Shown here in pieces: positions 5,466-53,590 of a stretch of DNA of 64,000 nt. The DNA comes from Myrmaecium sp. VS I D KN 1. Lineage: Eukaryota > Ascomycota > Dothideomycetes > Valsariales > Valsariaceae. Under the pieces are notes generated by a model that worked only from the letters and a program-made list of their open reading frames with translations, was not told the origin of the DNA and did not search any database. Numbering within the stretch: position 1 is the stretch's first letter; each line of letters starts with the position of its first letter. The stretch spans positions 1,612,001 to 1,676,000 of the forward strand of contig JADQAV010000002.1 of the NCBI GenBank assembly GCA_019775845.1, in the 5' to 3' direction. A program made the translations under genes and the position numbers.

Positions 5466-8400
5466 ATGCGTACCGGTGCTCTGCCCCTGGCCATGGCCTT
5501 GGGCGTATCTGTCGCTGCCTTCCCCCAGGCACATACGAAAGACTACGCACCCATTAGGATCCAACGCGTTGACGGCCGCGGTAACGAAGTGGAACTTGGC
5601 AGATATCGTTTCCAGGACGATTCAATCATGGACGTTCAGGGCCATGGCTGCAGCTTTCTTGGCAACAATCGTCATTTCAAGTGCATCAAAGGATACCAGT
5701 GTGAGTGCCAATATAGCGGAAAAGGGGAAGAGGTTTTTAGCTGATATGTATCACAGCTCGAAACTTCCAGTTGGGCTGCGACGGACTCATCCGTTATGCT
5801 CACGGCCAATCATTCTTTGCATGTGGCAACGGCCTTGAGACTGAGTTCGAACTGCATGACAGGCGTATCGAGGAGGACTGCGAAGAGGTTCGCCTGTATT
5901 GGGCTGGTCAGCTCAATACTGACTCATGCTTCGAATATCGCCAACCTGGCCACGCAAAGCTCCAGGACGTATTGCAAGGTGCCGTAGTGAATCGTCAAGC
6001 TCTGAAGAGAAGGCAGGAACTTGATACCGTGGAGGAGCCCATTGAAGAACTTGCTTTCGTGGAGGAGCCCAATGGACCCGATCCTTCTCCGTAAGCACTC
6101 GCCCAAAGCAGACTGTGTATATCACTGGATCTGCCTGTTATCTTGCATTTCGAAGGTTTACTAACGCCACTGAAGTCTCCAAGTAGTTCAAACCCAGGAC
6201 GGGTTCGCGGTTGTTGCTAATCCTCCCTTGACCGAGCAGGTGATCACACTTTCTGCTGATCCTCCTCAAACTGAGCAGGTGGCTACAATTGTTCCTATTG
6301 CTCCTGAAATCGAAGAGGTGGTTACTGTCATCGCTGATGCATCCGAAGATGAGGAGGTAGTCACAGCTATTGCTGAAACTCCCGTTACCGTGACGGAATT
6401 TGTCACCTCGACCTTAACGCAATCTGGGACCGGCGACCTACTGGCTACGCCCGAACCTGAGAGTGAGGAGGCTGATGATGAAGAACTCATCGACACAATG
6501 ATCGTCGAAACGGTGACTGAAGTAGAGTCTGTCGTCGTCACAGTCACGGCTACTTCTACGCCTACCCTTGCCGAAAAGAGAGATGTGCAAGGCGGTCTGG
6601 AGAAGCGCCAGGCTACCAGTATTAGCGTTGTGACCGTCACAAGTGCACCGGCGACAGTGGTTATGGTGACTATGGTCCCAGGGGGGTTCGTCACGTCCAC
6701 GTTGTTGCTGGGCTCGGTGTCCTCATCCTCGAAGTCCTCATCCTCGACTTCCTCGACTTCCTCAACTTCGTCGTCCTCATCATCGTCTAGTTCATCTATT
6801 GGGTGCCCGACGTCCACATCCACATCTACCGCCTGCCCGCCATACACGACATCGTCGGAAGGATGTGCGACGTCCACGTCCACATCGTCCACCTCCTGCC
6901 CGACTTCATCCACGTCTTCCACGTCCTCCTGTAGCACATCGACGAGCAGCACTACGAATGGTTGCTCTTTCAGTTCCAACTGCGGTCCGACGACTTCGGT
7001 GTCTAGCTCCAGCTCCAGCTCTAGTTATACCACGTCTAGCTCTCAAGGGCTCTATTACCCAAACTCGGAGGGCCGTAATGAGCAGACTCAACAAGGCAAA
7101 GCTGGCTACGGAGTGAGTGAAGGACCAGCCGGCAAGGACGCGCAATTGGACCGATCAGCTGGTAATGGTCAAGGCCAAAGCAATGGCAACTCGAACGCTG
7201 GCCAGGCCCAAGGATTCGATCCCGAAAGAGCGAAAGCTTTCTTCGCTAATATCTTTGGCAACATGGGCGCTCAAGAAGGCCAATCCGAAACCCAAGGGAC
7301 TGGCCAGGACGGCAAACACGGCGGCAACCAGCATGCCAATCAGAAGGGCAACCAGAGTGGTAACGAGAATGATCAGCTGAATGACAATCAGAATGCCCAG
7401 CAGAACTCCCAGCAAACTGGCAATCATGAAGGCAACCAAAAGGGCAACCAGAACGGTAACCAGAATGGTAATCAGAACGCCAACCAGAATGCCCACCACA
7501 ATGCCAATCAGAAGGACAACCAGCATGCCCACCAGAATGCCAACCAGGATGCCAACCAAAAGGGCAGCCAGGTCGGCTACCAGAACGGCAACCAGAACGG
7601 CAACCAGAACGGCAACCAGAACGGCAACCAGAACGGCAACCAGAACGGCCACCAGAACGGCCACCAGAACGGCCACCAGAACGGCCACCAGAACGGCAAC
7701 CAGAACGGCCACCAGAACGGCAACCACAAATCCAACCAAAAGAGCAGCCAGAACGACAACCATGGCGGCAATCAGAATGCCAATCAAAAGGGCAACCAAA
7801 AGGGCAACCAAAAGGGTAACCAGAACGGTAACCAGAAAGGCAACCAAAACGTCCATCAGAAGGGCAGCCAGATTGCCTACCAGACTGCTACCCAGACTGC
7901 CACCCAGACTGCCAATCAGGCTTCCAGCAAGCCTGCCAACCCAAAGGGCAGCCAGAACGCCAACCAAAATGCTAACCAAAAGGGTGGCCAGAGCGGCATC
8001 CAAGCTGACAATCAGAAAGATAATCATAACAAGAACCAGAAGGGTGATCAGGTCGGCAGCCAGTCCGGAGAGAAGAAAGGCAGCCAAAGGCTTCAAGGAG
8101 AGAATGACGCAAAACCCAAGGACCGGATTGGAAGTTCAGGTGGGAATGAGAACTATCTTCAGCCCGGCTCCTAAACTAACATGCTAAAAGGTAGCCTAGG
8201 AGCCCTAGATAAGGGCGTGGGCGCTCAGGATACTAATCAAGGCGGATCACAAGTCGGCGCCCCGCATGAGAACTTCGAGAGCCAGCGAGAGGCTAAACAC
8301 CAAATCCAAGGTCAGGGTGAGAATAAGGGTAGCAATCAAGGTGTCAATGGTGACTTCCTCCCGCCAAGGATGCGTCCGGCTGGTATCCTCGAGATGATCA

Positions 8401-10376
8401 GCAGACTTCGTGCAGATGCTGAGCGCTTACACGGTAACAACGGCGGTAACCAGGCAGGAAACGAGGGCGGCAACCGCACCGGCCCCGAAACCAGCAACCA
8501 GAGCAAGGAGGGCGAAGCCCATAGAGAGGGCATTGAAGGCTTTGGTAAGGCAGCAACCTTCCCTAGCAGCAGTGAAATAGCGCCCCAAGGCGGGAACGGA
8601 AAGGAGCAGCCCGAGAGACAAACCAGCAACGAAGGCGCAAGCCAAGTTGACGCCGGCAAGTGGCTGAAGCCTCACCAACGCCGGGACTTGGAGCATCTGG
8701 GCAAGGGGCAGACCAGTTGGGAGCAAATCTCGTCTCACTATAGGAACAGAAAGGGCCGAAAGGAATGGGTTTCCACCCACATTACCGGGGATGGAGCCCC
8801 ACCGAAAGGTAGAATTTCGTTCCAGGACCTCTTGAAGGGGTTAACCTCCTCCAACGGCAATGAAGAGGCCAGAGCTCGCAACACGCCCTCCCCTTCGTCT
8901 GCATCCCTGGCGTTGGGTTCGCTCTCCGCCGGCCAGAGCACTTTCTCGACCTTCAACAATGGGACCGCCTCTACGAGGGACTTGTCCACAAGTGCGTCTC
9001 TCTCCAGCTCCACGGAGGCGGCTCAAACAGAGACATCGTCTGCAAGTGTATTCTCCTCCAGCTCCACTGAGGTGGCCCAGGCAGAAACTTCGTCCGCAAC
9101 TGTATCCTCCTCCAGCTCCACCGAGGTGGCGCAATCTGAGCCGTCGCCCATAACGGCATCTTCCTCCAGCTCTACTGAAGCTGCCCAGGCTGCAGAAACT
9201 GAGGTAGACCCTGCCTCCCCTCGTGAAACAGCTCGCCCTGCAGAGAGCGACTCTGAAGGATTTCCATCGGATCTTGAAGACTCACAGACGACGACCGTCT
9301 CTTCCAGCTCGGCTGAAGCTTCAGTCGCATCGACTGAGAGCTCGGCGGCTGAGACCGCTGATGCTCTTACGCTCCCGGGCAGCTTTTCGGAGGCCACGGC
9401 CACCTCCGAAGCCGAGGCTGCGCTCACATCATCTACATCGATTGCAGAGTCTGAAGTGCCGTCAGCTTCAGCTTCAGCAGTCGAGGCTCCTGCATCCCAG
9501 ACTTCTTCGGAACCCGCTTTAGCTTCTTCTTCTTCTTCTTCTTCTTCTTCTTCTTCTATCTTTGAAACCGCAGCTGAGGAATCCGAGGCGGCAGCTTCCG
9601 AATCTCCCCTACCTGCTTCAGCAGAAGCTCTGGACACCGTCTCTGGAACTGCTAGTGGAGCATCGTCATCTGTGCCGGAGGGCACCAGTGCCGCTAGCAC
9701 TGAGCTGGCCTTTGATTCTCCCATGCCAACAGCCGAGGCTACTGCCGCTGATGAAACCCCAAGTGCTACTTCAGAAGAGCCATCTGTGGCCGCAGCAGCT
9801 GAAACGGCCTACGAGACTGTGACTGTCTATGAACTCATAACCACCGCGTCAGCATCTGCTTCGCAGTCTGCAGCTGCCTCCGAGGCTGCAGTTGAATCTG
9901 CTTCTCCCTCTGCAAGTGGCTCAGCCTCTGAATCCGTGAGCGCTGATGCTGCTGAAACAGCTGAGGCTACCGCAACTTCGGCTGCGGCATCTTCAGCTGC
10001 CGCCACTGCTGACGCAGCTTCCTCTACGAGCTCTAGTACTGACTCTTCTACCGCAGTTGAGTCAACTTCCGCAGCCCCTTCCGCCTCTGTAGTAGAAGCA
10101 GCTTCTTCTTCCGAGACAGCATTTGCTTCGGCCACAGCCGCCTCTTCCACGGCGGCCGCCTCGGAGCAGGCTGCCGCGGATCCCACCACTTCCACTTCGA
10201 CCACTTCCAAGAGCGTTGTCGAGAGCAAGGTCGCAGGCGTGGGTGAGAAGCTCATCAGAATCATCTTGAATCAGCTTAGGGCTGTGCTCGAGTTCAGCGA
10301 TGAGAGTGATGAGAACGACGAAGGCACCATCGTTGCTAGGTCTCCGATGCGCTTCGAGCGTCGCAACTTGCTTTGA
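5466..10376 (+). CDS. Giant secreted repeat protein (Cys head, Ser/Thr, Asn/Gln repeat and Ser/Ala domains)
   Basis: Four exons, 5466..5700, 5757..6090, 6176..8139 and 8191..10376, join in frame to about 1,572 residues. Introns are 56, 85 and 51 nt with good donors (GTGAGT, GTAAGC, GTGGGA); CTAAC lies before the second and third acceptors. Residues 1-20 form a signal peptide (MRTGALPLAMALGVSVAAF). Residues 20-165 hold a compact domain with at least six cysteines. Next come VTVT/EE-rich segments with possible Kex2 sites (ALKRR, AEKR, LEKR), a Ser/Cys/Thr-rich stretch, an Asn/Gln tract at about 570-795, a charged segment with apparent order (WLKPHQRRDLEHLG) and a long Ser/Ala/Glu-rich tail. The C-terminus (FERRNLL) is not hydrophobic, so a GPI anchor is unlikely. 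I do not recognise the family; a surface or matrix protein, adhesin-like, is an inference. Confidence 0.8.
7581..7724 (+). repeat. 12-bp tandem repeat encoding QNG(N/H)
   Basis: Twelve consecutive 12-bp units of the form CAGAACGGC(A/C)AC encode QNGN or QNGH. Degenerate NQxx units extend on both sides from about 7310 to 7990. Near-identity at the DNA level in the core suggests recent expansion by slippage or unequal exchange. The period of 12 leaves several frames open on both strands, which explains the long spurious ORFs there. Confidence 0.9.
9523..9557 (+). repeat. (CTT)n microsatellite encoding a Ser run
   Basis: About twelve CTT units lie inside exon 4 of the giant secreted-protein gene and encode an uninterrupted serine homopolymer. 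It is a likely site of length variation. Confidence 0.9.
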
Positions 10377-39547: not shown

Positions 39548-41472
39548 TTACGCGATCAGCCACCTTTCCCCTCCCAGTCCTTCAATGGCCTTGACCCAGC
39601 TTTTCCCGTTCTTCTCTTTGTCCTTGGTATGCCATATCATATGCAGCATCTCCATCGCACTGCTAACGTAACCCCAGAGCAGGGCGTCCCAGATGCGCGC
39701 CAAGCGCTGCATGACCCAGTCCCTCTGGTGAGCATCTTCGCATTCTGCACCCGCCAAAAATGTCGGGAACGTCGTCGCTTTGAGAAGGAGATGGTCTTCC
39801 GGGATTTTCTTGAGATGATCTAGCGTGGCCGTCACAAGGCTGGAAAGTGATGAAGGAGTGGAAGCTGATGCCGCTGTCTCAGCACAATGTGAAAGTCTCG
39901 AGAAGACACATATGTGGCCGTTCGCTCGTATGAGGGGTACGGGTAAGACCCTGGCGAGATATATACAAACCGCGTACTTGTGTGCTGAAGCCACATGCAC
40001 CCGCAAATCTTGATCCGGTTGCAAGCTGACTTCCTGCACTTGTTGTGCCCAAGCTTCCGGGTCGAACTCCCTCGCAGCTTGGAGAAGGGAAGCCGCTTCC
40101 GCCTCCGCGTTCGGAGGACTCGTGTAGCATAGCTCTGAGGCCTGAAGGAGAATGCGCAGCAAAACCGCAGGACAAGAAAGATAGCTGTTCCCCTCGGCGA
40201 ATTTGAGAATAGGTTCTAACTTGATCTCGGAAGAAAGAGGAGGGGACGGAGGGTATGGGTACGATAACGCACAGCCCAGGATGTCATATACCAAGACATC
40301 GGCGACCATGCTCTGGCGTAGTGTATGTAGAGGGGGAATTTTGTTGCGTGGAGAGCTATCAGTCAGATAAGAGGGTCCGAGTGCATTGATGAGCTGTTTT
40401 GCCCCAGTCATGTGGACTCGCCAGCTATCCTTGCCGCTGTCTATGAGCTCAAAATTTATGAAAAGTAGAACCGATGCAAGCAGAACGTCGGCATGGCAAA
40501 GGCCATGCGAGGCAAGGTTGTCGTTCAGAAGTCGAATGGCACGTTGCTTGGCGATCAGAGCATCCCGCAAGATGTTATTGTTGTGGGAGGCATAGTAGCC
40601 ACTGCGATTGAGGACGCTGATACCGTTCCTGGGGTTAGAGGAGATGGCATCACGTACAGAGCGATGCGAAGAATTGAACATATGGAAGGCGGCACTTGCG
40701 ATCATGATTTGCAGGAGCATAGGGTGTTCGCGGGTCAAGGGGATCAGATCGCGCATCGGATTACGCGTGGGGTTGTCATAGAGCACGAAGTCTACGCACA
40801 GGCGTTCTCGGTCTGGGTGAACTTCAGTATGAGTAAACTACACGATAAAGTGCAATGCAATGCAGGCCACGGCTTACAATGCGCCAGATACCATCTGGAC
40901 CTCGAGTCCAAGTCCTGATAAATCGGATCCAGCATGGGCCGCCGTAGCGGCGTCTCATCGCCATTTCCATTGAGGATGGCGGCGAAAGAGCGGGTCAGGT
41001 CGATATCGCTACGTTTGTACGTCACCGCCATAGCCTCCGGGCGGTCATCGGCCGAACCGTCATCCGATCTTCCATCGCTGCTGCTGGATGATGGAGCAGG
41101 CGTTCCGGAAGTTGGAGGAGTAGCATCACAGTCCACGGTTCCACTGGGACGAGAAAACAATATCCCTTCAGAGGTAGTCGCAGCGGACGCTCCGGGGCTG
41201 CGCTGCTGCGAATGCCGACCTAAGGGCCCCCCTGTATCGACTCGCGCCCGTTTCGCGGGAGGCGGCGAAGGCAGCTGGCCTTCCACATCCTCAAAGGTCT
41301 TCCCCATCATCTTCCCCCTGCTGGCAACCCCCTTATTCCATATCAACAGCTGTCCGTACCCCAGGCACTCCTGCCCGTGGGTGATGCACTTGTGGCATGC
41401 GGGCACGGCGCGATCGCAGCGCAGCCGGCGACGGCGACAGGTGTGACATGGCCTGGATGCGGTCGATGCCAT
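39548..41472 (-). CDS. Zn2Cys6 transcription factor with fungal-specific TF domain
   Basis: Two exons, 41472..40878 and 40791..39548, give 612 residues. The N-terminus has the binuclear zinc cluster with six Cys at 9, 12, 19, 26, 29 and 36 (CHTCRRRRLRCDRAVPAC then HKCITHGQECLGY). After a Ser/Pro/Asp-rich linker, the region from about 185 (YNP-like YDNPTRNPMRDLIPLTREHP, LLQIMIASAAFHMFN, LLASVLLFINFELIDSG, WRVHMTGAKQLI) is the fungal-specific TF domain of the Fungal_trans_2 type. It is a nuclear DNA-binding regulator recognising CGG-type half-sites. The 86-nt intron splits a Tyr codon. It lies directly downstream of the PL4 lyase on the same strand, so it may control that gene; this is inference from position only. 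Confidence 0.9.
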
Positions 41473-41774: not shown

Positions 41775-43926
41775 CTACTTCACCTCCAGCCGAAGGGCAT
41801 CGTATTGCACGTACACCTGCCCCGGCAGCAGCGCGGACTCATAATCCATGGCGTCCTGGGGAAGCCCGAGCACCAGCTCGTTCTCGCCCGTCCGGAGCCA
41901 ACTGGCCGCGAAGGTGAACTGGTGGCCGATGTTGTAGCAACTCACGGCCGAGCGCACGGCGCAGGAGCTGGAGTGGTAGTACCTGGTCGATCGACATGGG
42001 TTAGCCATCTGGATCCGTCTCTCGAAGGTCGTTTGTGCGGAAGGACATGTACTGTACTTACGGAATCACCCACGGCTCCAACGTCCGTCCATTCACCGTC
42101 GCCGTCAAAGGCAGGTTCGCATACGGTTGCGAGGCATTGTACACGTCCGTGTTCCCGGCCGCCGTCTTCGCCCCCGCCAGCTGCACCGTCAGCGTCGCGA
42201 CCGTAGCGCCGCTCAGATCGGCCGCGGCGGCGTCGAACAGGAACGTCCAGTCCGCCACCTCCGGTCCGTAGATCGTCTCGTTCCGCAGGAAGTTCGCCGT
42301 GCCGCCGAAGGAACTCCAGTGCACGTAGTTCAGCTCTCGTCGCTCATCGCCCTGGCCGATCTTAAACCGCACTCCCTTCGGGAAGTCCTTGACGAAATCG
42401 TACGCCGCCCAGTAGATCCGGTACTGCTCTGGCTTCCGAGGCTTCGTCTCGTCGAGCTCGTATCCGTGGCGGAACTCCCCTGAACTCTTGTCCGGCCGAC
42501 CCACTCTCCACAGCTCCCGGCCCGCGCTCTCCTCCTTCCAGGTCACTCGCGTAACGGTGGTATTGCCGGCCGTCACCTCCACCCCGTCCTGGACGAAGTC
42601 GCCGAAGACCCCGTCCGCATACACCGTGAGCCTGTACCGCCCCTCCCTCACCCGGGGAATCGTCACCGTCGCGACATCGCCCGCTCGCGCAACCTCTAAC
42701 TCACCCCAATACTGGTACGCTGTCGAGTCCACCGTGTTGTCCTGGAAATCGACGCCCTCGGCGGACAACACGGCTACCGGATTGCTGAGCCCTTCCCTGA
42801 GCGGAAGACGTACTTCCCCCGTCCACGTCCCTCTGCCGGCCGTCGTAACCGTGTTAGGAACGTGAGCGGCGATGCTATCGTAAAACGCCTCCCACGGCTT
42901 GTCCGGCACCCCCTCCGCCTCCGCCCTGCTGGCCGCAATCCCTCCCCCCGGCTGTCCGTGGGTGAACCAGTACACCTGCGGGCCAAATGTCCGGTCAAAG
43001 CCGGTGGTGATGTTCGGCGTGCCGTTGCCGTGGTGGTTCGAGACGATGTAGTTGTACACGATCCCATCCACGGTCAGGTCGGAGTTCAACGGGCCGTTGA
43101 AGTAGGTCTCCTTGGTGTTCAGCACCAGCCAGGCGCCGAAGGTGCTATTGTCCGCCGTCGCGGATCCGTCCGCCCAGAGGCCGTGGGCGCGGTGCGACCG
43201 ATAGCTGGACTGGAAGGTGTACTTGGTGAAGTACGCGCTCATCTCGCGCACGTACGGGTCGGCCGGGGTCGCGCCCAGATACCACGTCGCATCCTGGACC
43301 GTCACCTCCGCGCTCACGCCCGCGTCGCCGGGCAAGGGCGCGGTCGTGTGCGGGGTCGCGCTCAGGTGCGTCCACAGCGGCGTGTTCGGCCGGAACAGGG
43401 TGCGGAACTCCTGCAGGTTGCGCAGGAACGGGCGGGTGGCGTTGTCGTACGCCAGCCGGCTGAACGTGTGCACGCCCGTCTCGCCCTCGCGCAGGAAGAC
43501 GTACAGCTCGAGCAGCTGGCCCGTGCCTGGGTAGCGCTCCCCCATCACCACACCCGCGTAGGGCGTCGACGTGCTATCGTTCCCCTGGAAGACGGCGTAG
43601 TTGGGCGCGATGGCGCCCGGGGTATAGGAGCCCTCGGGGGTGCAGTAGCAGTCAAGGTAGGGGCCGATCCCGCCGTCACCGGATCCGGTCGCGCCGCCGG
43701 GTGTGGGCGTAACGTGGTCGGCCGTGCCGAGCAGGTCCTGCCCGTCCAGCCCGAGTTCGTCGATGAGCCCTCGGGACTTGTTGACCGCGAACCGGAGTCG
43801 GTCGTTGCGGACGACGATCTGCGCGGACGTCTCGTCGACGGTCAGCAAACCGAGAGCGCAGGAAGCGGCCAGGCACAGCGCGAGCAGGCAGCGCCCGGGG
43901 CTCTTTAAAATGGTGAAGGCGCTCAT
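41775..43926 (-). CDS. rglB: Secreted rhamnogalacturonan lyase, polysaccharide lyase family 4
   Basis: Two exons, 43926..42062 and 41982..41775, give 690 residues, near the usual length of fungal PL4 enzymes. A signal peptide is clear (SPGRCLLALCLAASCALGLL). The catalytic beta-sandwich domain starts at RNDRLRFAVNKSRGLIDEL and includes GDGGIGPYLDCYC, GERYPGTGQLLELYVFLREG and VYNYIVSNHHGNGTPNIT; next are a fibronectin-III-like domain (GRYRLTVYADGVFGDFVQ) and a C-terminal carbohydrate-binding-like domain (WTFLFD...LAGAKTAAGNTDVY). PL4 lyases cleave the backbone of rhamnogalacturonan I in pectin by beta-elimination outside the cell. The start is the Met just before the hydrophobic core; an in-frame GTG five codons upstream is not a start. 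The gene is GC-rich with strong G/C third positions, which opens a long antisense ORF. Confidence 0.93.
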
Positions 43927-44761: not shown

Positions 44762-47700
44762 TCACAATAGATACGAACGGTCATCAACCGAATTCAATGA
44801 GCTCGCCGTCATGATGGACGTGCGGCTGGCTGGTCGGCTCGGGCCCGGGCTGGCCGCCGGGCTATTGTTCCACTTCGACGGCGGCGGATATTTGAACGGT
44901 TGCGGATGATGCACGATGCTCGGCTCACGCACGCGCACCTTAGGCAAATCCTCCAGCTCTGTGCCGATCGTGCTGCCGCTGATTTGGCCGGTGCTCTTCT
45001 CGCTTGCCTGACTCTTGGTGCTCACAGCATCCGCCAGCGTGTGTCCCGAGCGGTTCGACCCGGATGAGCCACCGGAACCAGAGCCGGTGAACTTAACCTG
45101 CAGGCCGAAAGGATCTCCGCCTCCCACAACGGAGCCTTCGCTGATGCTCTCCATACTCCTTCCGCTACTTCCAAGGCTTCCGTTCTCGTTCCTGTCGCTG
45201 TGGGTGACATCTTGTCCGTCGGGCTCACCGAGCTCCTCTTTAAAGATACTGTTTCGACTTTGGCCCCTCTCCAGCCTTGGTCGCCCGGGGCTCCTTACCC
45301 CTCCGGTCAGCCTCTCCTCCTGACTTTTCTTGCCCCCTAGGGCTGCATCCATCTCCTGCTCCTGCTCATGTTCCTCTGCGAACCGCTCCAGCCTCTCTGG
45401 CTCGACCTCCAAGACTCTGGCCACCGCAGCCGTGGGCAAAGTGGCGTCTTCGCCTTGCTCTTCTCCAAGGGTTTCAAGCGTTTCAAGCAGTTCCCTGGCC
45501 ACCTGGAGCCTTTCTTTCCTCTTCTCGCGCGCCTTCTCGACACACATCTTCGCAGCATCCAGGGCCTTGAAGTTCTCAATGACTCTGGGGTGACGGACGG
45601 AGAAGAAGTCGGCGTACGAGTAGAGCGCATAGAAGACGGAGGCTGTGTTGACGAACATCAAGGCGAGCTTCATGGCGAAATAAACCGGAATGACCTTCCA
45701 TGCGATCATCTCCTTCTTCCTGCGGAGCTGGTTGAGATTGAAAAAGGTCACGCCCACAACGTAAACACCAATGAGCGATGCCATCATGATAGCCGTTAGT
45801 CGGGGCTGCACCACGAACGCGATGGGCATAAGGATCGGACGAATGGTGTACGTGATCGTGCTGTAGATCTCGTAGATTAGGTAGAGCTTAGCGATGACCT
45901 CGTAGCGCCCTAGCCGCCAGGCGAAGAAGAGGTAGTGCAGGTCGTCTCGCAGCCGGTAGATGTAAAAGAAGTTCCAGCGGAAGAAACGCTGCTTCCAGAT
46001 CGTCATCTCGCCGTAGCCGCCGCGGGTTGATTTGACCGGGATGAAAAGACTTGGGGGCGTCTCCGTCTCGACAAACACCTGAGAGCAGAAACCGATCCTG
46101 TAACCTGAAGACTAAAGGGGATGTTAGCTTCAAAATTCTACACAAATCTGCGAAGGGGATGTGGCTTACCCTGGCGGTGTGGCCAAAGTACCAATCCTCG
46201 CTGATCTGGAACCCGGGGTGTCCCCAGAACAACTTCTCTAACACCTTGCGATCCCACAAGATGATTGCACCATGGGGGAAGATCGCCGTACCGACCTTCG
46301 CCTGGAAACAACGACTCAGCCCGCTCATCTTATACTCCAAATCCTGGGCCTGCTGGATCAAAGTGCCCTTGCTGCCGTTAGGGCCCGTGCTCTTAATCGT
46401 GTAGCCGATGCATTTGGTCATGTCGTCCAGACGCTCTGTCACCAGTGGTAGGTTGGGTGGGAGATGGACATCATCGTCAATGAGCATGATGTACTTGTAG
46501 TCCTTCGCCATGAGGCAACCGACAAACTCGGCCGTGATCTTGCTGCCAACCGGGACCCAGACGTGATTCACGCCGTACTTGTTGCAGACCTCTTCTGTGT
46601 TGTCGAGCGGCGTGGGAGAGTTGCCGTTGGCGATAATGAAAATCTGTTCGGGCTTAAAAATCTTCTGCGCGTGTTCAATCGTCTCGCCCAGAGCTCCGGC
46701 TGCCTTGTACGCAGGGATGACAAGACAGCACTCGCTTGCATCACGCTTCTCAACATCTTCGATCTCCGCTGTCTTCTCAAACTGGGTGAAAATCAAGGGG
46801 ACCCATGCGAAAATCAATCCCCAGCAGAAGAAAATGACGAATCCACAGGAGATCGGATCGATGGTCGAGAGGAACCAATACAGGCTATACACAATCCCGT
46901 TCCAGAGCGGAAAGCCAACGAAGGCGAAGTAAATGATGCAGGTCAAGAGGGTGAACCAGAAGACTTTGAAAGCCATCTTCCGCGGTCCGCTTGGCTTGTA
47001 AGATTCTGTCTTGAGCTGCGCCATGTCCATAAACTCCTTGACCTCATCCGGATGGGCATCGTCGTCGAGGAAAGGGAGATCGTTCTGCAGCGGAGCTTTT
47101 CCAATATAGTACAGAACAGACGAAGCGGAAATCGACCGCCGGGAACTGAAGTTACGACGGATGTCAACAGACATGGACCGCGACATAGAGCGTACAGACC
47201 GAAGAGAGTTAGAGCGGGCGAATACAGATGGTCGTTTCGGTGAAGGAGAGCCGGTGAAGAGGGATTTGGACCGAGCTGGAGAAGGTCTGTCTGGTGAAGG
47301 GCCAGGACCTGCGGAGACTGACCGCCTCGGCGATGCGCGAGGCGTGTATGAGGCCGAGCGGAAGTGCTTGAAGCGGGAGGGCCATTGCGGTCGACCGGCG
47401 CTGGCATCATCGACGGAAGGAAGGGCCGTCACATCATCTTCGGCGATGGGCGGCTCCAGCGCGCTCGCATCTCCCTCTCCTCTTGAGACGCCGGCGAAAG
47501 AGACATGACGAAAGTGCCCGTCGGTTTTTGTGCGAGTGGGCTGCGGCCGGCCATCATCCTCCCGCAAGTAGGTACGAGCTGGCACTCCAGTCGCTTCCTT
47601 CTCCTCCAGAGGGTCGACGTCAATCGTGGGCCGTCGCGCTCCGGTTAGTGAGGCGCGGGGATGAAGGCTTGAGCGACGAAGAGGATGATGCGGGTGAAGG

Positions 47701-48429
47701 GGCGGAGGATGGAGCGAGCGATCTTCTGGGGCCGCAGGATCCACGTCGATAGTTGGCCGTCGAGTTTGTGTCGTCGAAGCCAGTGGATGAAGGCTCGATC
47801 GGCGAGGCGGATGCTGCGAGAAAACATCTTCTCCCATCGCAGGATCCACTTCGATGGTTGGCCGTCGAGGCATATGCTGCGCCGGATGGTCGGCTGCTAA
47901 GGGATCCAAGTCGACAGTCGGTCGTCTGGAGGTGTTTGTTGGCGTCCGAGGGTAGAGGCTCGAACGCCGCGGCGGTGTACGGAACGCGGTCTGCGCATGG
48001 CGTATTGATGGACGTTGCTGGGCAAAGTCGTGGGTGGTGGTGGTTGTGGTTTGGGCGTCTGCATGCTGCTCAGAACGTGGCTCGGATGGGAGCACGTTCT
48101 CCTGGGCTGCAGACTGTCGCACCTCCGGCGCCGTCTTTCGGCTTGTGTTTGTAGGGAGAGAAGATTGTGTGCCGAGGACAGCTCCTTCGTCAGCTCTGAC
48201 GGGAGTGGAAGGTGTCGGCGTTGAGGGTTGGGAAGCTCTTCTATCGGGTCTGCTGGGTGACTGCGGTGAAGCCTGGGTGTCTTGTGTCCCGCTCGCGCGC
48301 CTGGGTGACAATCGCGGGATCTTCGATTTCTTCGTGAGCTTGTTCGGTGTTCTCGGTGGTGACGTCTGATGGTTGAAGCGTCAGTGAGAGAGCAGATGGC
48401 ACCCGGGACATGGGAGGACAGCTTACCAT
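44762..48429 (-). CDS. Processive family-2 glycosyltransferase (hyaluronan/chitin-synthase-like membrane protein)
   Basis: Three exons, 48429..48427, 48365..46170 and 46111..44762, give 1,182 residues; exon 1 is just the start codon ATG followed by GTAAGC. Residues 1-440 are a disordered basic Ser/Pro/Arg leader with four copies of RRPT(I/V)(D/E)(V/L)DP. Membrane helices begin near 463 (FKVFWFTLLTCIIYFAFVGF). The catalytic domain has CLVIPAYKAAGAL, IANGNSP, the DxD-type IDDDVHLP near 630, SEDWYF near 720, and KQRFFRW near 774, the product-binding QxxRW motif of processive GT2 enzymes. More helices follow (MPIAFVVQPRLTAIMMASL, VYFAMKLALMFVNTASVFYA), then a coiled coil and a Ser/Gly-rich tail. 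It resembles the fungal GT2 needed for hyphal growth on surfaces in Zymoseptoria and Fusarium; orthology is from memory. The polymer it makes is unknown. Confidence 0.88.
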
Positions 48430-49430
48430 GACTGCGGTTGATTATGATACTGCGGTATGGAAGGGAGGGAAAGTGTTGGATGGAGGTGTTGTGGAGGTTG
48501 AGACGCAGGTCGGCGTAAGGAAAGCCGAAAGGAAGGGAGCGCTCTTGCTCTCAAGAGGGCGGTTGACGAAAGACACAGACAGTTGACGTTTTCCGCCTTA
48601 CATACGTCGTCACACACTGAACGGGAAGGAAAGCTCTGCAAGGCCTGGCTGGGTCGATCGACGGTGATCCCTACCTGGACGGGAGTGGAGGGGGAGGGGT
48701 CGAGGGTAGCTCCTTCTTCGATTTTTTCTTCTTCCTGTTCTGGTCCCCTGGGGAAGAGGAGGGCAGGCAGGGGTCCAAGTGCGGAAGGAGTGGGAGAGCA
48801 GGGCGAGGGCCAGGTCGAGGGCGAGGGCGATGGAAGGGTGAGAGAAGGGTGAGGATGGGCGATGGTCGGCGGGCACGTCGTCATAGTAACCCAGTCGGGT
48901 AAGGCATCCAGGGCACGTGCTGGTGAAAGGCCGAATGGAAGGTGCAAAGGTGATTCTGGCACCCACATCTGCGTCTAACTAGAGGTACGGCCCGGTCTGG
49001 AGGAGTCCGGAATGGGTCCGGGTGGGGGGGAAGGACGTGAGGAGGATACGAGGGGAAGGGTGCCTGAGTCCTTCCGGAAGTCTTTCCTGAGGCCCTCTTC
49101 AGACGTCCTTCCCCATCACCCAACCATCACCCTTAACCCAAACGCCGAAGAGGGTTGGGGTTGACGCTGGGTGGGGAGCAGGGTGGAGGTGCTCGTTCAC
49201 TCCTGAGCATCATGATCCTCACCCTGGCCTTGCCGGCGTGTTGCCGGCGCAGGTACCGGTGTTGTGTCCGGTGCCTGGGGAACCTGTGGTCTGGACCGGA
49301 TCGGCAAGTGGACTACTGCATGAGGCAATTTCAGCAGGATCGGCCGGTCGGGACGGGTATGCACGCCATCATAGTCTGATGGAGGGGCCGCGTGGGTCAG
49401 GGTGGGCTGCAATAGGGTGGATTTGGCTGG

Positions 49431-49468
49431 GCGGGTTTAAGCGGGTTAAGCGGGTTAGGTGGGTTAGC
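49431..49468. repeat. Four tandem copies of a 9-10-bp GCGGGTTAA-like unit
   Basis: The copies read GCGGGTTTAA, GCGGGTTAA, GCGGGTTAG and GTGGGTTAG. They lie in the shared GT2/dehydrogenase upstream region. CGG is the half-site of Zn2Cys6 regulators; the unit also partly resembles telomeric GGGTTA. Confidence 0.75.
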
Positions 49469-50688
49469 CGGTGTCAAAGGTAAGAGCCGCAAGGTTATGG
49501 AGGAGAGGGGGGCGACGGCAAGCAAGAGCCGCATGGTGGTCGGCGACGACCCCTCTGATCCGGTTAGGCTCACCTTCACCACACCCCGGGCCATACTTAC
49601 TTACCTCCCTAAGGTAAGGTACCGCCCGTACCAGGTACTGACTGAACCACAGACGCCGACTTCACAACATTCGGATCCTTGGCAGGACCTCAGCCATTGC
49701 CCGAAACGGCATCGATCAGGCGCAAATCTATTTCCCCCTCTGTCCTGACATGTCCGCCCACCTGACGTACATGGCATTCCTTGCCCGGCAAAGGCGTATC
49801 CGCCCAATCCCGTAACCCAGCCATCCCACGGTTGCGGAACAGACAGGAGTCAGTTGGGAGGGAAGCGACCAGGTTCCTGGCAGCCGGTCTGGCAGATCCA
49901 GCGGGTAGAGCAATTGCATCGCATCCTGCGATTAGTCTGCGACTTCTACGAGTGTTGCGAGATCTGCGAGACATGCGAGATCAGCGGGTCGGGTCAGTCA
50001 GCGATGCACCAATGCCCCACAACTCCTGATGCCCGAACATCTGTGGTGTTGCTCGTCGACCACCATGCTCTGTTCACAAAGGTCCGCGAGAAGGGAACCT
50101 TACGTCGGTTTGACTTGACACATCGCCCCACTGCTGCAACGCTGGAGAGCAAGCGCAGCCGCAATCCTCCCTCTCATGGACCGATTGCCAATGCCGCGGC
50201 CCGTTGAGGTGGCGGCTAAGGTTGAAGGTCTGCCCGATGAGGTAGGGAGGATGCCGAAAGAGGAAAGATGGCGGTCGGCAGATGTTGCGTTGCACGATGA
50301 GCCAAGATGGCGAAAGGGAAGATAGAGAGAGAGAGCCGATGCGCAAGTCCGATGGGCGAGTCATGTCTGTCGTGTACAATATATTGGCAAACCTTGCTAG
50401 GAGGGTCTGCGGTGCGCCAGGCTGCGGTAGTCCGCGATAGTTCCGCCAAACCCGCTAGCGCGCACTCTAATGCAGGGTCCGGCGGCAAGCGGAAAGGGCG
50501 CGGCTGCCGGGCCCGCTTGGCTTTGCTCGGCGAGGCTGCCCCGCGCCAACACCTACCGGATGTGGCTCGTCATCGCTGATTCGGATTCGCAGTTACGGCC
50601 GGACTTTACCCGCCTCCTTGGAAGCCGCGGACATCGACCGACCGACCTCATCCGACCGGACCGCCGCCGCCTTTGCTGCCTGCCGGTT

Positions 50689-50713
50689 TGCCTGCCTGTC
50701 TGCCTGCCTGCCT
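50689..50713 (+). repeat. (TGCC)n short microsatellite
   Basis: About six TGCC/TGTC units lie in the same upstream region. It is a simple repeat with no apparent function. Confidence 0.8.
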
Positions 50714-52081
50714 CTTGCTGAGGCGTCTGTCGCCCTCATGCACATGGCATTTTCATGCGTCTCAGCCATTCCCATGCTCTCGGCAGGCCAGTCTGAAGTG
50801 AGCGGGTGTACCCCTTCGTGCCTGAATTTTTTCCTGTCGTTTCAGTTTGCCACAAAGGGTTCGGGGATGCCTCAGGTACTGGCTTCACCTGTGGAATGTA
50901 CCTTGCAGCTTCTCCTGTCTTTCTGCAGGCCACCTCCAGGCCACTAGGCCCCCAGGCCCCCCGATCCGAGGTAAGGTAGGAGGGCCCCCGTCATCAGGCC
51001 ATACTGGCACCATCCCTGCTGCCCCGGTTCCTTTCCGACTGCCTCCGCCTGTCCGCCTAAGGTATCCGCCTGCGCTTGCCCAGCCACCCAGCCGAGCCGG
51101 TAGCGTTGCCCTCGCTTCCCGCCGCCTGCAGCAAGAGCCTCCAACGGACTCTCGGTTCACTGAGCCCATCTCTCCTTTGCACGCCTGAGGCTCCATCGCT
51201 GCCGCCGCTTGACCGCCCCCATTCACAACGGCGGCCAATCACCGACCGTCCGATCGTCCCCGGTGATCCCCAGCCATGCCCACCAGGAAGCCAGAGCGTC
51301 ATCGAACCAGAATTCTTCTGTGAATCCTTCACCCCACCCGCTGACGCTTTGCCCCCAACCGAGCCGGCGGTCCCTCCCTGGCGGTCCGAGGCTGCCCGGA
51401 CCTTCTTCGAGCACTGACGTTTTCTCTATTCTCCCCGAGGGCCCTCAGTCACACCTCACAGTAGCCACCCTTCAGTCCATATCGAGCAAGGTTCGAGCGG
51501 ATCTGGTCAATCAGGAGAGCCGGTCGAGCACGCTGGCATTGGCCCCGTCGAGTCCGACCCATGGCCTCGCCAGAGTCACCTCCCATCCGCTCGAGCTAGA
51601 AGCTCCGCAGAACTTCTCTTACGTCGAGATCGGCATAGCGTTTCGATAGTCTCTCCCAACACTGGCTTGACATCGGCTTCCTGCAGCAGATCCCGCTGCG
51701 AACATGTTCACCCTCATGCAAGGCTGGACTGGTCTGGACTGCGCTTCGAGCGCCATCCTCAGAGCCTTTGGCGATTCACACACTGCTCGAGGCGAGTGTG
51801 AATACATCACCCCAGCCTTCGACTTGTTCCTGAGAAGAGAAGGGCTATAAAGCCCGGGGTCTCCAGGGGAACATTCTCTCAATCATCCTCACTGGTGGAC
51901 GGTCACTCAGCAGCCTTACTTACTAATTCCCTGATCGTTTCAACATCCTTCCAATTGTCTATTGAAGGCTCTATTATCTGGCATACTTTTTACCCTGCTA
52001 CCCTAATCTTTAACTTCTTAATCCATCACCACCACCTCTCCTCCTCTTCTCCAACCTTTCCTCCCCTCCACAACCTCCAAC

Positions 52082-53590
52082 ATGATTACCCCTTCCCCCA
52101 GCTTTGAGGCCAACCAGGCCCCGATGCGTTCCGGAGTGGCTGCCCGCAGGCCCTCCGTGCCCATCATTAAGCTCGACAATGTGGAGATAGCGATGAAGCA
52201 GAGTGTGGACACCGCCTCCGTCCTCCCTTCTACGCCCTCTACGCTCGACAACCCTCTCGCGCCTATCATCAAGATGAAGCGCATCATCACACCTCCGGAG
52301 TCACCTAAGCCAACCAAATCCTTCCAGAAGGGAGCTGACAGCTCCTACTTCCCTCCGCGTGTCGACTCTCTCACTCCGGCACCCGCTACCCAACTCCCGG
52401 TCTCTGACGATGAAACCCCCCTCGTCGCCGTCATCGGCGTCGGCTATGTTGGCATCCATCTGGTCGAGGCCTTCGCGAAGCACTACAGCGTTGTTGCCTT
52501 TGACGTCTCCGACGCACGGCTAGCCACCGTTGGCGAAGAGCTCTCCTACCTCGACACCATCAAGTACACCTCCAACCCCCGCGATCTGAAGCCCGCGACC
52601 CACTTCCTCATCTCGGTGCCTACTCTTCTCCAGGCCGACAAGTCCATCAACACCTCCTACGTGCAGTCCGCCATCTCCACCTTGGCCCGGTACGCTCGGC
52701 CCAACGCGACCGTTGTCATGGAATCCTCCGTCGCCGTTGGCATGACCCGGGAGCTCCTGACCCCGCTAATGCAGTCTCGCGGCCTGCGGGCCGGTATGTC
52801 CCCCGAGCGCGTCGACCCCGGCCGTACCGAGCCCGCGTTTGAGGAGATCCCCAAGGTCATCTCCGGTCTCGACGACATCACCCCGGGCTCCCTGGAGTCC
52901 ATCCAGAAGCTGTACAGCAAGGTCTTCCAGCGCACCCTTCCCGTCAGCAAGCCGGAGGTGGCCGAGATGACCAAGCTGTACGAGAACTGCCAGCGGATGA
53001 TGGCGATCGCGTACGTGAACGAGATGGCCGACGCCTGCTCCACGCTGGGCATCGACGCCTTCGAGGTCGCCAACGCGGCCGCCAGCAAGCCGTTCGGCTA
53101 CCTGCCCATGTACCCCTCCCTCGGCGTGGGCGGGCACTGTATCCCTGTCAACCCCTACTACCTCCTCTCCAACTGCGACTTCCCGCTGCTGCAGGAGGCG
53201 GCCCGGCGCATGAACGAGCGGCCCGGCGCGGTCGGCGACCGTCTCCTCGCTCAGCTCAACAAGGACCACGCCGGCAAGTTCCTCTCGCAGAAGGCGCGCG
53301 TGCTGGTGGTCGGCGCCGGCTTCAAGAAGGGCCAGAGCCTGACGACGATGAGCCCGGGCGTGGAGCTGATGCGCTGCCTGCTCGACCGGCACGACGTCCA
53401 CGTCGAGTTCGCCGACCCGCTCGTCGGCGAGGAGGTCCTGCCCTGGCTGCCCAAGCTTGCCGACGAGGACTGGAACAAGCAGACGCTCGAGACGTTCGAC
53501 CTGATCGTCGTCGCCGTCCGCCAGGAGGGCATCGACTTCAGCGTCCTCGACAAGCTCGAGGGTGTCAAGGTGGAGGTGTTGGCTCAATAA
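52082..53590 (+). CDS. Nucleotide-sugar 6-dehydrogenase, WecC/WbpA-like (UDP-HexNAc type)
   Basis: A single exon encodes 502 residues. After a disordered leader of about 110 residues is the NAD-binding Rossmann fold (PLVAVIGVGYVGIHLVEAF), then VPTLLQADKSINTSYV, VVMESSVAVGMTRELL, SPERVDPGRTEP, the helical core KPEVAEMTKLYENCQRMMAI, the catalytic Cys353 in GVGGHCIPVNPYYL, and a C-terminal domain (VLVVGAGFKKGQSLTTMSPG). The enzyme oxidises C6 of a UDP-sugar to the uronic acid in two NAD-dependent steps. UDP-glucose dehydrogenases usually read GGSCFxKD at the cysteine; GGHCIPVxPYYL is the signature of UDP-ManNAc/GlcNAc dehydrogenases, so an N-acetyl-aminouronate donor is likely. The 3' half is very GC-rich. 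It is head-to-head with the processive GT2 gene. Confidence 0.9.
   Translation: MITPSPSFEANQAPMRSGVAARRPSVPIIKLDNVEIAMKQSVDTASVLPSTPSTLDNPLAPIIKMKRIITPPESPKPTKSFQKGADSSYFPPRVDSLTPAPATQLPVSDDETPLVAVIGVGYVGIHLVEAFAKHYSVVAFDVSDARLATVGEELSYLDTIKYTSNPRDLKPATHFLISVPTLLQADKSINTSYVQSAISTLARYARPNATVVMESSVAVGMTRELLTPLMQSRGLRAGMSPERVDPGRTEPAFEEIPKVISGLDDITPGSLESIQKLYSKVFQRTLPVSKPEVAEMTKLYENCQRMMAIAYVNEMADACSTLGIDAFEVANAAASKPFGYLPMYPSLGVGGHCIPVNPYYLLSNCDFPLLQEAARRMNERPGAVGDRLLAQLNKDHAGKFLSQKARVLVVGAGFKKGQSLTTMSPGVELMRCLLDRHDVHVEFADPLVGEEVLPWLPKLADEDWNKQTLETFDLIVVAVRQEGIDFSVLDKLEGVKVEVLAQ

Follow-up and report, generated by a model that had tools for sequence, protein, structure and literature searches.

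In Wangiella, a chitin-synthase-like gene (CHSL) adjoins a gene for a predicted UDP-N-acetylglucosamine (UDP-GlcNAc) 6-dehydrogenase (UNGD). The available text of the same report describes CHSL-UNGD adjacency also in Sordariomycetes, two Aspergillus species, Ustilaginomycetes and algal viruses, and calls the role of UDP-GlcNAcA in fungi unclear (PMC4059230). Chitin synthase clusters of CV and ESV type have been reported, and the CV type includes a deacetylase (PMC5122149, PMC7053769). Cps1 and Cps2 genes have been described for Leotiomyceta (PMC9500679; PMC5653360), and MoGt2 of Magnaporthe is a protein of 483 amino acids with D156, D158, Q301 and a QxxRW motif (PMC6731526). In this study, we analyzed a window of 64,000 nucleotides from Myrmaecium sp. 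VS I D KN 1 (assembly GCA_019775845.1, contig JADQAV010000002.1, positions 1,612,001 to 1,676,000 of the forward strand), in which a family 2 glycosyltransferase (GT2) gene and a nucleotide-sugar dehydrogenase gene lie head to head. An original prediction had described these divergent genes with their coordinates and motif strings, all of which are present. It had also proposed a product not known to be described for fungi; pairs of a GT2 gene and an N-acetylhexosamine (HexNAc)-type dehydrogenase gene have in fact been published, as the available text of three reports shows (PMC4059230, PMC5122149, PMC7053769). We found that the dehydrogenase is a HexNAc-type relative with replaced catalytic residues and that its GT2 neighbor carries RxxRW.

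The dehydrogenase-family gene is a single exon of 502 amino acids on the forward strand (52082-53590). Its product matched PF00984 (E 5.8e-23) and PF03721 (E 5.6e-16), and its score against the superfamily model TIGR03026 was 237.5 bits, above the cut-off of 189.8. It begins with a low-complexity extension of about 110 amino acids (52082-52417), which four aligned bacterial dehydrogenases lack. A family profile search of the genome (25.66 Mb in 66 contigs; introns short, with GT..AG ends) found this gene as the single match. The short introns, a Zn2Cys6 regulator and strong chitin synthase matches mark the genome as fungal, probably of the Pezizomycotina. The best PDB sequence match was the UDP-N-acetylmannosamine (UDP-ManNAc) dehydrogenase 4r16 (119 bits), followed by Cap5O (3ojl, 83.2 bits), and the best UDP-glucose dehydrogenase reached 54.3 bits. 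Foldseek with an AlphaFold model (mean pLDDT 89.0) also ranked 4r16 and 3ojl first. Among the NCBIfam equivalogs, HexNAc models scored 112-133 bits versus 36.5-76.3 bits for UDP-glucose models; all of these scores lay far below cut-off, and the cut-offs of the named HexNAc equivalogs (459-750) were not reached. The product carries the HexNAc signature residues ESS, SPERVDPGR, ENCQR and GGHC. It also agrees at 7 of the 9 positions listed as specific for UDP-ManNAc dehydrogenases in the available text of PMC4794789, a list made for UDP-ManNAc enzymes that we mapped ourselves through the Cap5O alignment; the disagreements, read by eye, are at Lys336, where the list has His, and at Tyr360, where it has Phe. 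In the tree, a branch with SH-aLRT 100 parted E. coli Ugd from the window dehydrogenase and E. coli WecC. Sequence scores, signature residues and the tree all place this dehydrogenase relative in the HexNAc type.

The substrate was considered from individual residues and from the gene content of the genome. In an alignment read by eye, Phe338 stands where the Pyrococcus enzyme has an Arg in contact with the N-acetyl group. The KPFG stretch is also found in the consensus of a 31-row dehydrogenase alignment, and UDP-GlcNAc dehydrogenases of the WbpA kind carry it as well. The UDP-GlcNAc 2-epimerase domain PF02350 was not found in the genome, in a search whose control matched 11 of 14 prokaryote genomes. 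Because no such epimerase was found, UDP-GlcNAc is favored over UDP-ManNAc, which is disfavored as the substrate. Phe338 and KPFG, together with the lack of a PF02350 match, suggest that UDP-GlcNAc would be the likeliest original substrate.

The GT2 gene lies on the reverse strand and has three exons in our own splice model. Exon 1 contributes only the ATG (48427-48429). Exon 2 (46170-48365) encodes a Ser/Pro-rich tail, hydrophobic segments and a GT-A domain with IDDDVHLP and SEDW (PF13641, PF00535 and PF13632; hydropathy), and exon 3 (44762-46111) encodes KQRFFRW, C-terminal hydrophobic segments, a long low-complexity tail and the stop. The introns of 61 and 58 bases have GT..AG ends, and the spliced frame is open over 1182 amino acids. 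The acidic (DxD-type) motif IDDDVHLPP spans 46455-46481, with IDDDVHLP starting at 46481, and SEDW lies at 46191-46202. QRFFRW (45974-45991) had been taken for the third motif of a processive synthase; the string is there, but its frame is R-x-x-R-W with the Q one residue early, and it is not the canonical QxxRW. Exon 2 matched PF13641 (E 2.1e-16) as well as PF13632 and PF00535, and the spliced core of 461 amino acids matched PF13641 with 84.5 bits (E 1.4e-23). Given the E-values of PF13641, PF00984 and PF03721, the matches of the GT2 and the dehydrogenase are not due to chance. A crude hydropathy scan placed hydrophobic segments at residues 469-527, before the catalytic domain, and at 826-896, after it. 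The low-complexity Ser/Pro-rich extension at the N-terminus is about 465 amino acids long (46965-48365). The spliced core gave no match to the chitin synthase domain PF03142 in a scan to E 10, with the HMMER filters as a caveat, and the GT2 was rejected as a chitin synthase on this ground. No PDB sequence matched exon 2 at E 0.001 or the spliced core at E 10, and a structure predicted from the single sequence for part of exon 2 had low confidence (pLDDT 51.4). The GT2 and dehydrogenase genes are both intact, and both are ordinary genes of the nuclear genome of a filamentous fungus.

We compared the GT2 with its relatives within the genome. PF13641 matched 11 stretches, 10 of them over the cut-off; some of these are exons of the same gene, and three lie within chitin synthases. 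Seven PF03142 matches were found, all away from the GT2/dehydrogenase pair. BLASTP was performed among seven GT2 proteins, a part of all the GT2 matches, and its E-values refer to this set. It grouped the window GT2 with a paralogue, L016 with L017, and three chitin synthases with each other. The paralogue (L006 5874-9266; contig C10, about 2.584-2.587 Mb) encodes 1074 amino acids in four exons by our own model, with an RxxRW-type motif and long tails, and it is 49% identical to the window GT2 over 459 residues (C10:2.586 Mb). Outside this group the best E-value of the window GT2 was 0.06; the paralogue reached 0.0009 with L016, so that a remote kinship of their group to L016 is visible at the sequence level. 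The W motif is KQRFFRW in the window GT2 and KQRFMRW in the paralogue. RxxRW was found in these two only among the seven compared, the other five having QCLRW (L016 and L017) or QRRRW (the three chitin synthases). L016 (contig C16) and L017 (contig C21) are GT2 genes 43% alike, and from their motif, rather than from reference sequences, we infer that they are the Cps1/Cps2-like genes of the genome. The spacing from the first D to the Q is non-discriminating, at 143 residues in the window GT2 and 141 and 147 in L016 and L017. By these comparisons, the window GT2 and its paralogue are set apart from the chitin synthases and the QxxRW GT2 genes compared. To our knowledge, no product is known for their group.

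We tentatively favor a functional UDP-HexNAc dehydrogenase with a link to polysaccharide synthesis, as in the published fungal GT2-UNGD pairs, and regard this as possible rather than probable. The enzyme would act on UDP-GlcNAc and, even with its changed catalytic residues, carry the oxidation through to the acid, and its product would be used by a surface-polysaccharide synthase. This may be the neighboring GT2, in which hydrophobic segments flanking the GT-A domain and long low-complexity tails are consistent with the architecture of a membrane synthase. The fungal precedent in the available text of PMC4059230 supports this reading. Several observations weigh against it, and they concern the family assignment, the pairing and the catalytic site. 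The third family domain, PF03720, gave no match to the dehydrogenase at E 0.001. The structural comparison left the classes unseparated, with TMq 0.85 for 4r16, 0.84 for UDP-glucose enzymes and 0.85-0.87 for the TDP-glucose enzyme CalS8. Identity was 27% to E. coli WecC and 25% to E. coli Ugd, and the window dehydrogenase sits on the second longest branch (2.35) of the 130-row tree. A characterized member of the subfamily of the window GT2 was not identified.

With regard to the pairing, 3.65 kb separate the two start codons (intergenic region 48430-52081), and third-position GC is 0.67 in the GT2 versus 0.87 in the dehydrogenase. The GT2 paralogue lies 0.9 Mb away, and the only dehydrogenase match of the genome does not adjoin it. 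These differences, together with a polysaccharide lyase family 4 (PL4) gene and a Zn2Cys6 regulator next door that have no known tie to the pair, would fit two incidental neighbors. The dehydrogenase would then serve a different glycosyltransferase or the synthesis of a glycolipid, and the GT2 would polymerize UDP-GlcNAc or UDP-glucose alone. In A. fumigatus, a published UDP-glucose dehydrogenase works toward an acidic glycolipid (available text of PMC4059230, citing Fontaine 2009). We consider incidental neighbors somewhat unlikely, as the lone dehydrogenase match in 25.66 Mb lies beside a GT2 gene and GT2-dehydrogenase linkage recurs in published fungi. The chance of such adjacency, calculated after the fact for an assumed 12 GT2 genes among 9,000 genes, is about 0.003, and adjacency by itself counts as mild evidence. 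In the original claim of a synthase paired with its dehydrogenase, a HexNAc-type relative beside a membrane synthase-type GT2 holds, and the joint pathway is weakened by the difference in third-position GC. The intergenic region contains only short imperfect repeats of 20-34 bases and open reading frames (ORFs) of up to 161 amino acids, which were not taken for genes and for which no family search was made. A TATAAA string (51846-51851, forward strand), 236 bases before the ATG of the dehydrogenase, is a candidate core promoter by string match only.

With regard to the catalytic site, the available text of PMC4794789 reports 18 residues invariant across 229 sequences of the family, and the window dehydrogenase keeps 16 of them, including the catalytic Cys, Lys and Asn. 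On the forward strand, its catalytic loop GGHCIPVNPYYL (53129-53164) has Asn357 (codon 53150-53152) in place of the general-base Asp, Ser216 (codon 52727-52729) replaces the conserved Thr, and Leu420 and Thr422 (53339-53347) replace a conserved Asp and the Arg of the NAD pyrophosphate. In the family the Thr holds the catalytic water, the Asp activates this water as the general base, and the NAD-pyrophosphate Arg is 99% conserved (PMC4794789, available text). We compared these positions in the best tblastn stretch of each of 165 plasmid, E. coli, viral and bacterial loci (L027-L191), all of which matched; several viral loci are near-copies, so that the 165 are not independent, and none is known to be fungal. 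Position 357 was Asp in 163 of the 164 aligned relatives, and the sole exception (L068) lies at a ragged alignment end. At positions 420 and 422, Asp and Arg were found in 125 of 125 aligned relatives each, with 40 of the 165 unaligned there. At position 216, 159 of 161 aligned relatives had Thr and two had Ser, and four of the 165 were unaligned. The 80 genome-collection loci had Asp, Asp and Arg at 357, 420 and 422 in 80 of 80 each. The search patterns that gathered the viral and bacterial loci left out positions 216, 357, 420 and 422. According to the available text of PMC3184952, the Asp-to-Asn change was detrimental in the human enzyme. The differences are spread over four codons while the reading frame stays open, which a single sequencing error would not explain. 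The ten-residue block holding the GGHCIPVNPYYL loop had the lowest confidence (56) in the AlphaFold model. With the general-base Asp and the NAD-binding Arg lost, UDP-GlcNAc oxidation cannot be assumed. The HexNAc type read from the signature in the original prediction stands by scores, residues and tree, but the oxidation of UDP-GlcNAc or UDP-ManNAc drawn from it cannot be taken for granted. As judged from these residues, donor-making is the weakest link in the argument for an aminouronic polymer.

The same residues raise the question of whether the dehydrogenase was re-purposed, with its four-electron oxidation lost or changed but its fold, and the sugar-nucleotide pocket for the most part, retained. 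Such a protein could halt at a partly oxidized sugar or rely on a different base; alternatively, it could sense or regulate UDP-HexNAc or the synthase. The changes hit both residues that handle the catalytic water, Thr becoming Ser and Asp becoming Asn, as well as the NAD-pyrophosphate Arg, and the gene is intact. Third-position GC amounts to 0.869 for the whole gene and rises to 0.915 in its core, which about equals the highest value among the comparison ORFs; the range for six other long ORFs in the window is 0.54-0.70. The translation-factor ORFs gave 0.914 (L192, read as EF-G from its first residues) and 0.827 (L195, likewise read as EF2), and in L194 and L196 at least, the longest ORF measured seems off the factor's own frame. 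These values fit a gene in use rather than one in decay. We give them only moderate weight because the region is GC-rich, four of five 2-kb blocks at 42-44 and 48-54 kb having a GC of 0.59-0.65, and the high third-position GC is thus partly regional. Re-purposing is unlikely in our judgment: Cys, Lys and Asn remain at their catalytic positions, Asn357 could still hold the water, Ser occurs at the Thr position in two aligned relatives, and the argument comes from one sequence set against relatives none of which is known to be fungal. In a wider proposal, the Asp that serves as general base, the Thr that partners it and the Arg that binds NAD would all have been lost in a fungal HexNAc-type branch, whose chemistry next to a GT2 synthase would be altered, through incomplete oxidation, a different base or a sensing role; on present sequences this appears doubtful. 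A hyaluronan-like locus of a UDP-glucose dehydrogenase and a hyaluronan-type synthase would match the overall GT2 and dehydrogenase layout, and CPS1 of Cryptococcus has been described as a hyaluronic acid synthase (available text of PMC5653360, citing Jong 2007), but it is highly improbable given the HexNAc rather than UDP-glucose signature of the dehydrogenase and a GT2 with neither the canonical QxxRW nor a PDB sequence match.

Relatives were also sought outside the genome. The best 80 of at least 582 confirmed bacterial candidates were 30-37% identical to the dehydrogenase in the best segment, and 30 of these loci were 33-42% identical in the alignment. Recent transfer from bacteria was rejected on the 30-37% identity, which does not reject an ancient transfer. 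The tree neighbor L132 was not used, being a join of two long branches. In viral contigs, the alignment scan with the dehydrogenase gave 136 confirmed loci, the best 80 of which were 24-37% identical. Single-protein scans of these contigs, a set that may not include chloroviruses, gave no confirmed relative of the GT2 or the dehydrogenase; two motif scans were without a match, and scanning with the GT2 alignment likewise yielded no confirmed relative.

The neighbors of the pair are the PL4 lyase gene, the Zn2Cys6 regulator and a ubiquitin-conjugating enzyme. The PL4-type gene is intact (42061-43926, reverse strand; PF14686 and PF14683), has a third-position GC of 0.871 and lies 0.8 kb past the 3' end of the GT2 gene; PF14686 has three further matches elsewhere in the genome. 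Beside it, on the reverse strand, are a Zn_clus ORF and a Fungal_trans_2 ORF (39551-41472), probably one gene split by an intron. A larger capsule-like cluster was rejected, as none of these neighbors shows a tie to the pair. Elsewhere in the window, an ORF on the forward strand (6174-8174) contains a long Asn/Gln/Gly/Lys repeat (7379-7978) with 12-base and 36-base periods, and a Ser-rich ORF (8175-10376) follows directly.

If the pair works together, it would make an acidic amino-sugar polymer from a synthase unlike the chitin synthases of the fungus, and such a wall or matrix component could escape standard wall analyses. If the dehydrogenase does not oxidize as expected, the annotation of the fungal and algal-virus clusters since 2014 would have only homology behind it and could be mistaken for some members of the dehydrogenase family. 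Should published fungal UNGD genes share changes of the Asn357, Ser216 and Thr422 type, their assigned activity would need fresh testing.

Compared with known systems, the window GT2 adjoins a gene for a HexNAc-type dehydrogenase, by homology and not by activity, as in the CHSL-UNGD pairs of Wangiella dermatitidis, Fusarium, A. flavus/oryzae, Ustilago hordei, chloroviruses and EsV-1 and the chs8-cda1-UNGD genes of Trichoderma, as far as these are described in the available texts; the published UNGD are likened to the window dehydrogenase by their descriptions, not by their sequences. Unlike CHSL, which matched PF03142 at 4e-23 (available text of PMC4059230), the window GT2 core has no such match to E 10. 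Unlike the CV-type clusters, the pair has no polysaccharide deacetylase, and the two PF01522 matches lie on contigs C2 and C27. Our literature searches turned up no description of a GT2 of this kind adjoining a dehydrogenase of this kind, although one may exist. The window GT2 resembles the Cps1/GT2/CpsA synthases (ZtGT2, MoGt2, A. fumigatus CpsA and BcCps1, with the Cps2 paralogues), which are thought to make outer-wall or matrix polysaccharide, in being a membrane GT2 with acidic and W motifs. Its distance from the first D to the Q is 143 versus 145 in MoGt2, but it has 1182 amino acids and RxxRW versus the 483 amino acids and QxxRW described for MoGt2, and L016 and L017 with QCLRW fit this group better in motif. 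An assignment of the window GT2 as Cps1 is therefore not favored from its sequence, the W motif and the weak similarity speaking against it and the D-to-Q spacing fitting; the window GT2 and its paralogue could still be the Cps1/Cps2 pair. The dehydrogenase resembles the UDP-ManNAc dehydrogenases Cap5O (3ojl) and P. horikoshii 4r16 in fold and in 7 of the 9 group-specific positions; unlike these two and E. coli WecC, it has the general-base Asp, the Thr partner and the NAD-binding Arg replaced. Relative to the available portions of PMC4059230, PMC5122149 and PMC7053769, two features appear to be new, namely a partner GT2 with RxxRW and the loss of catalytic residues.

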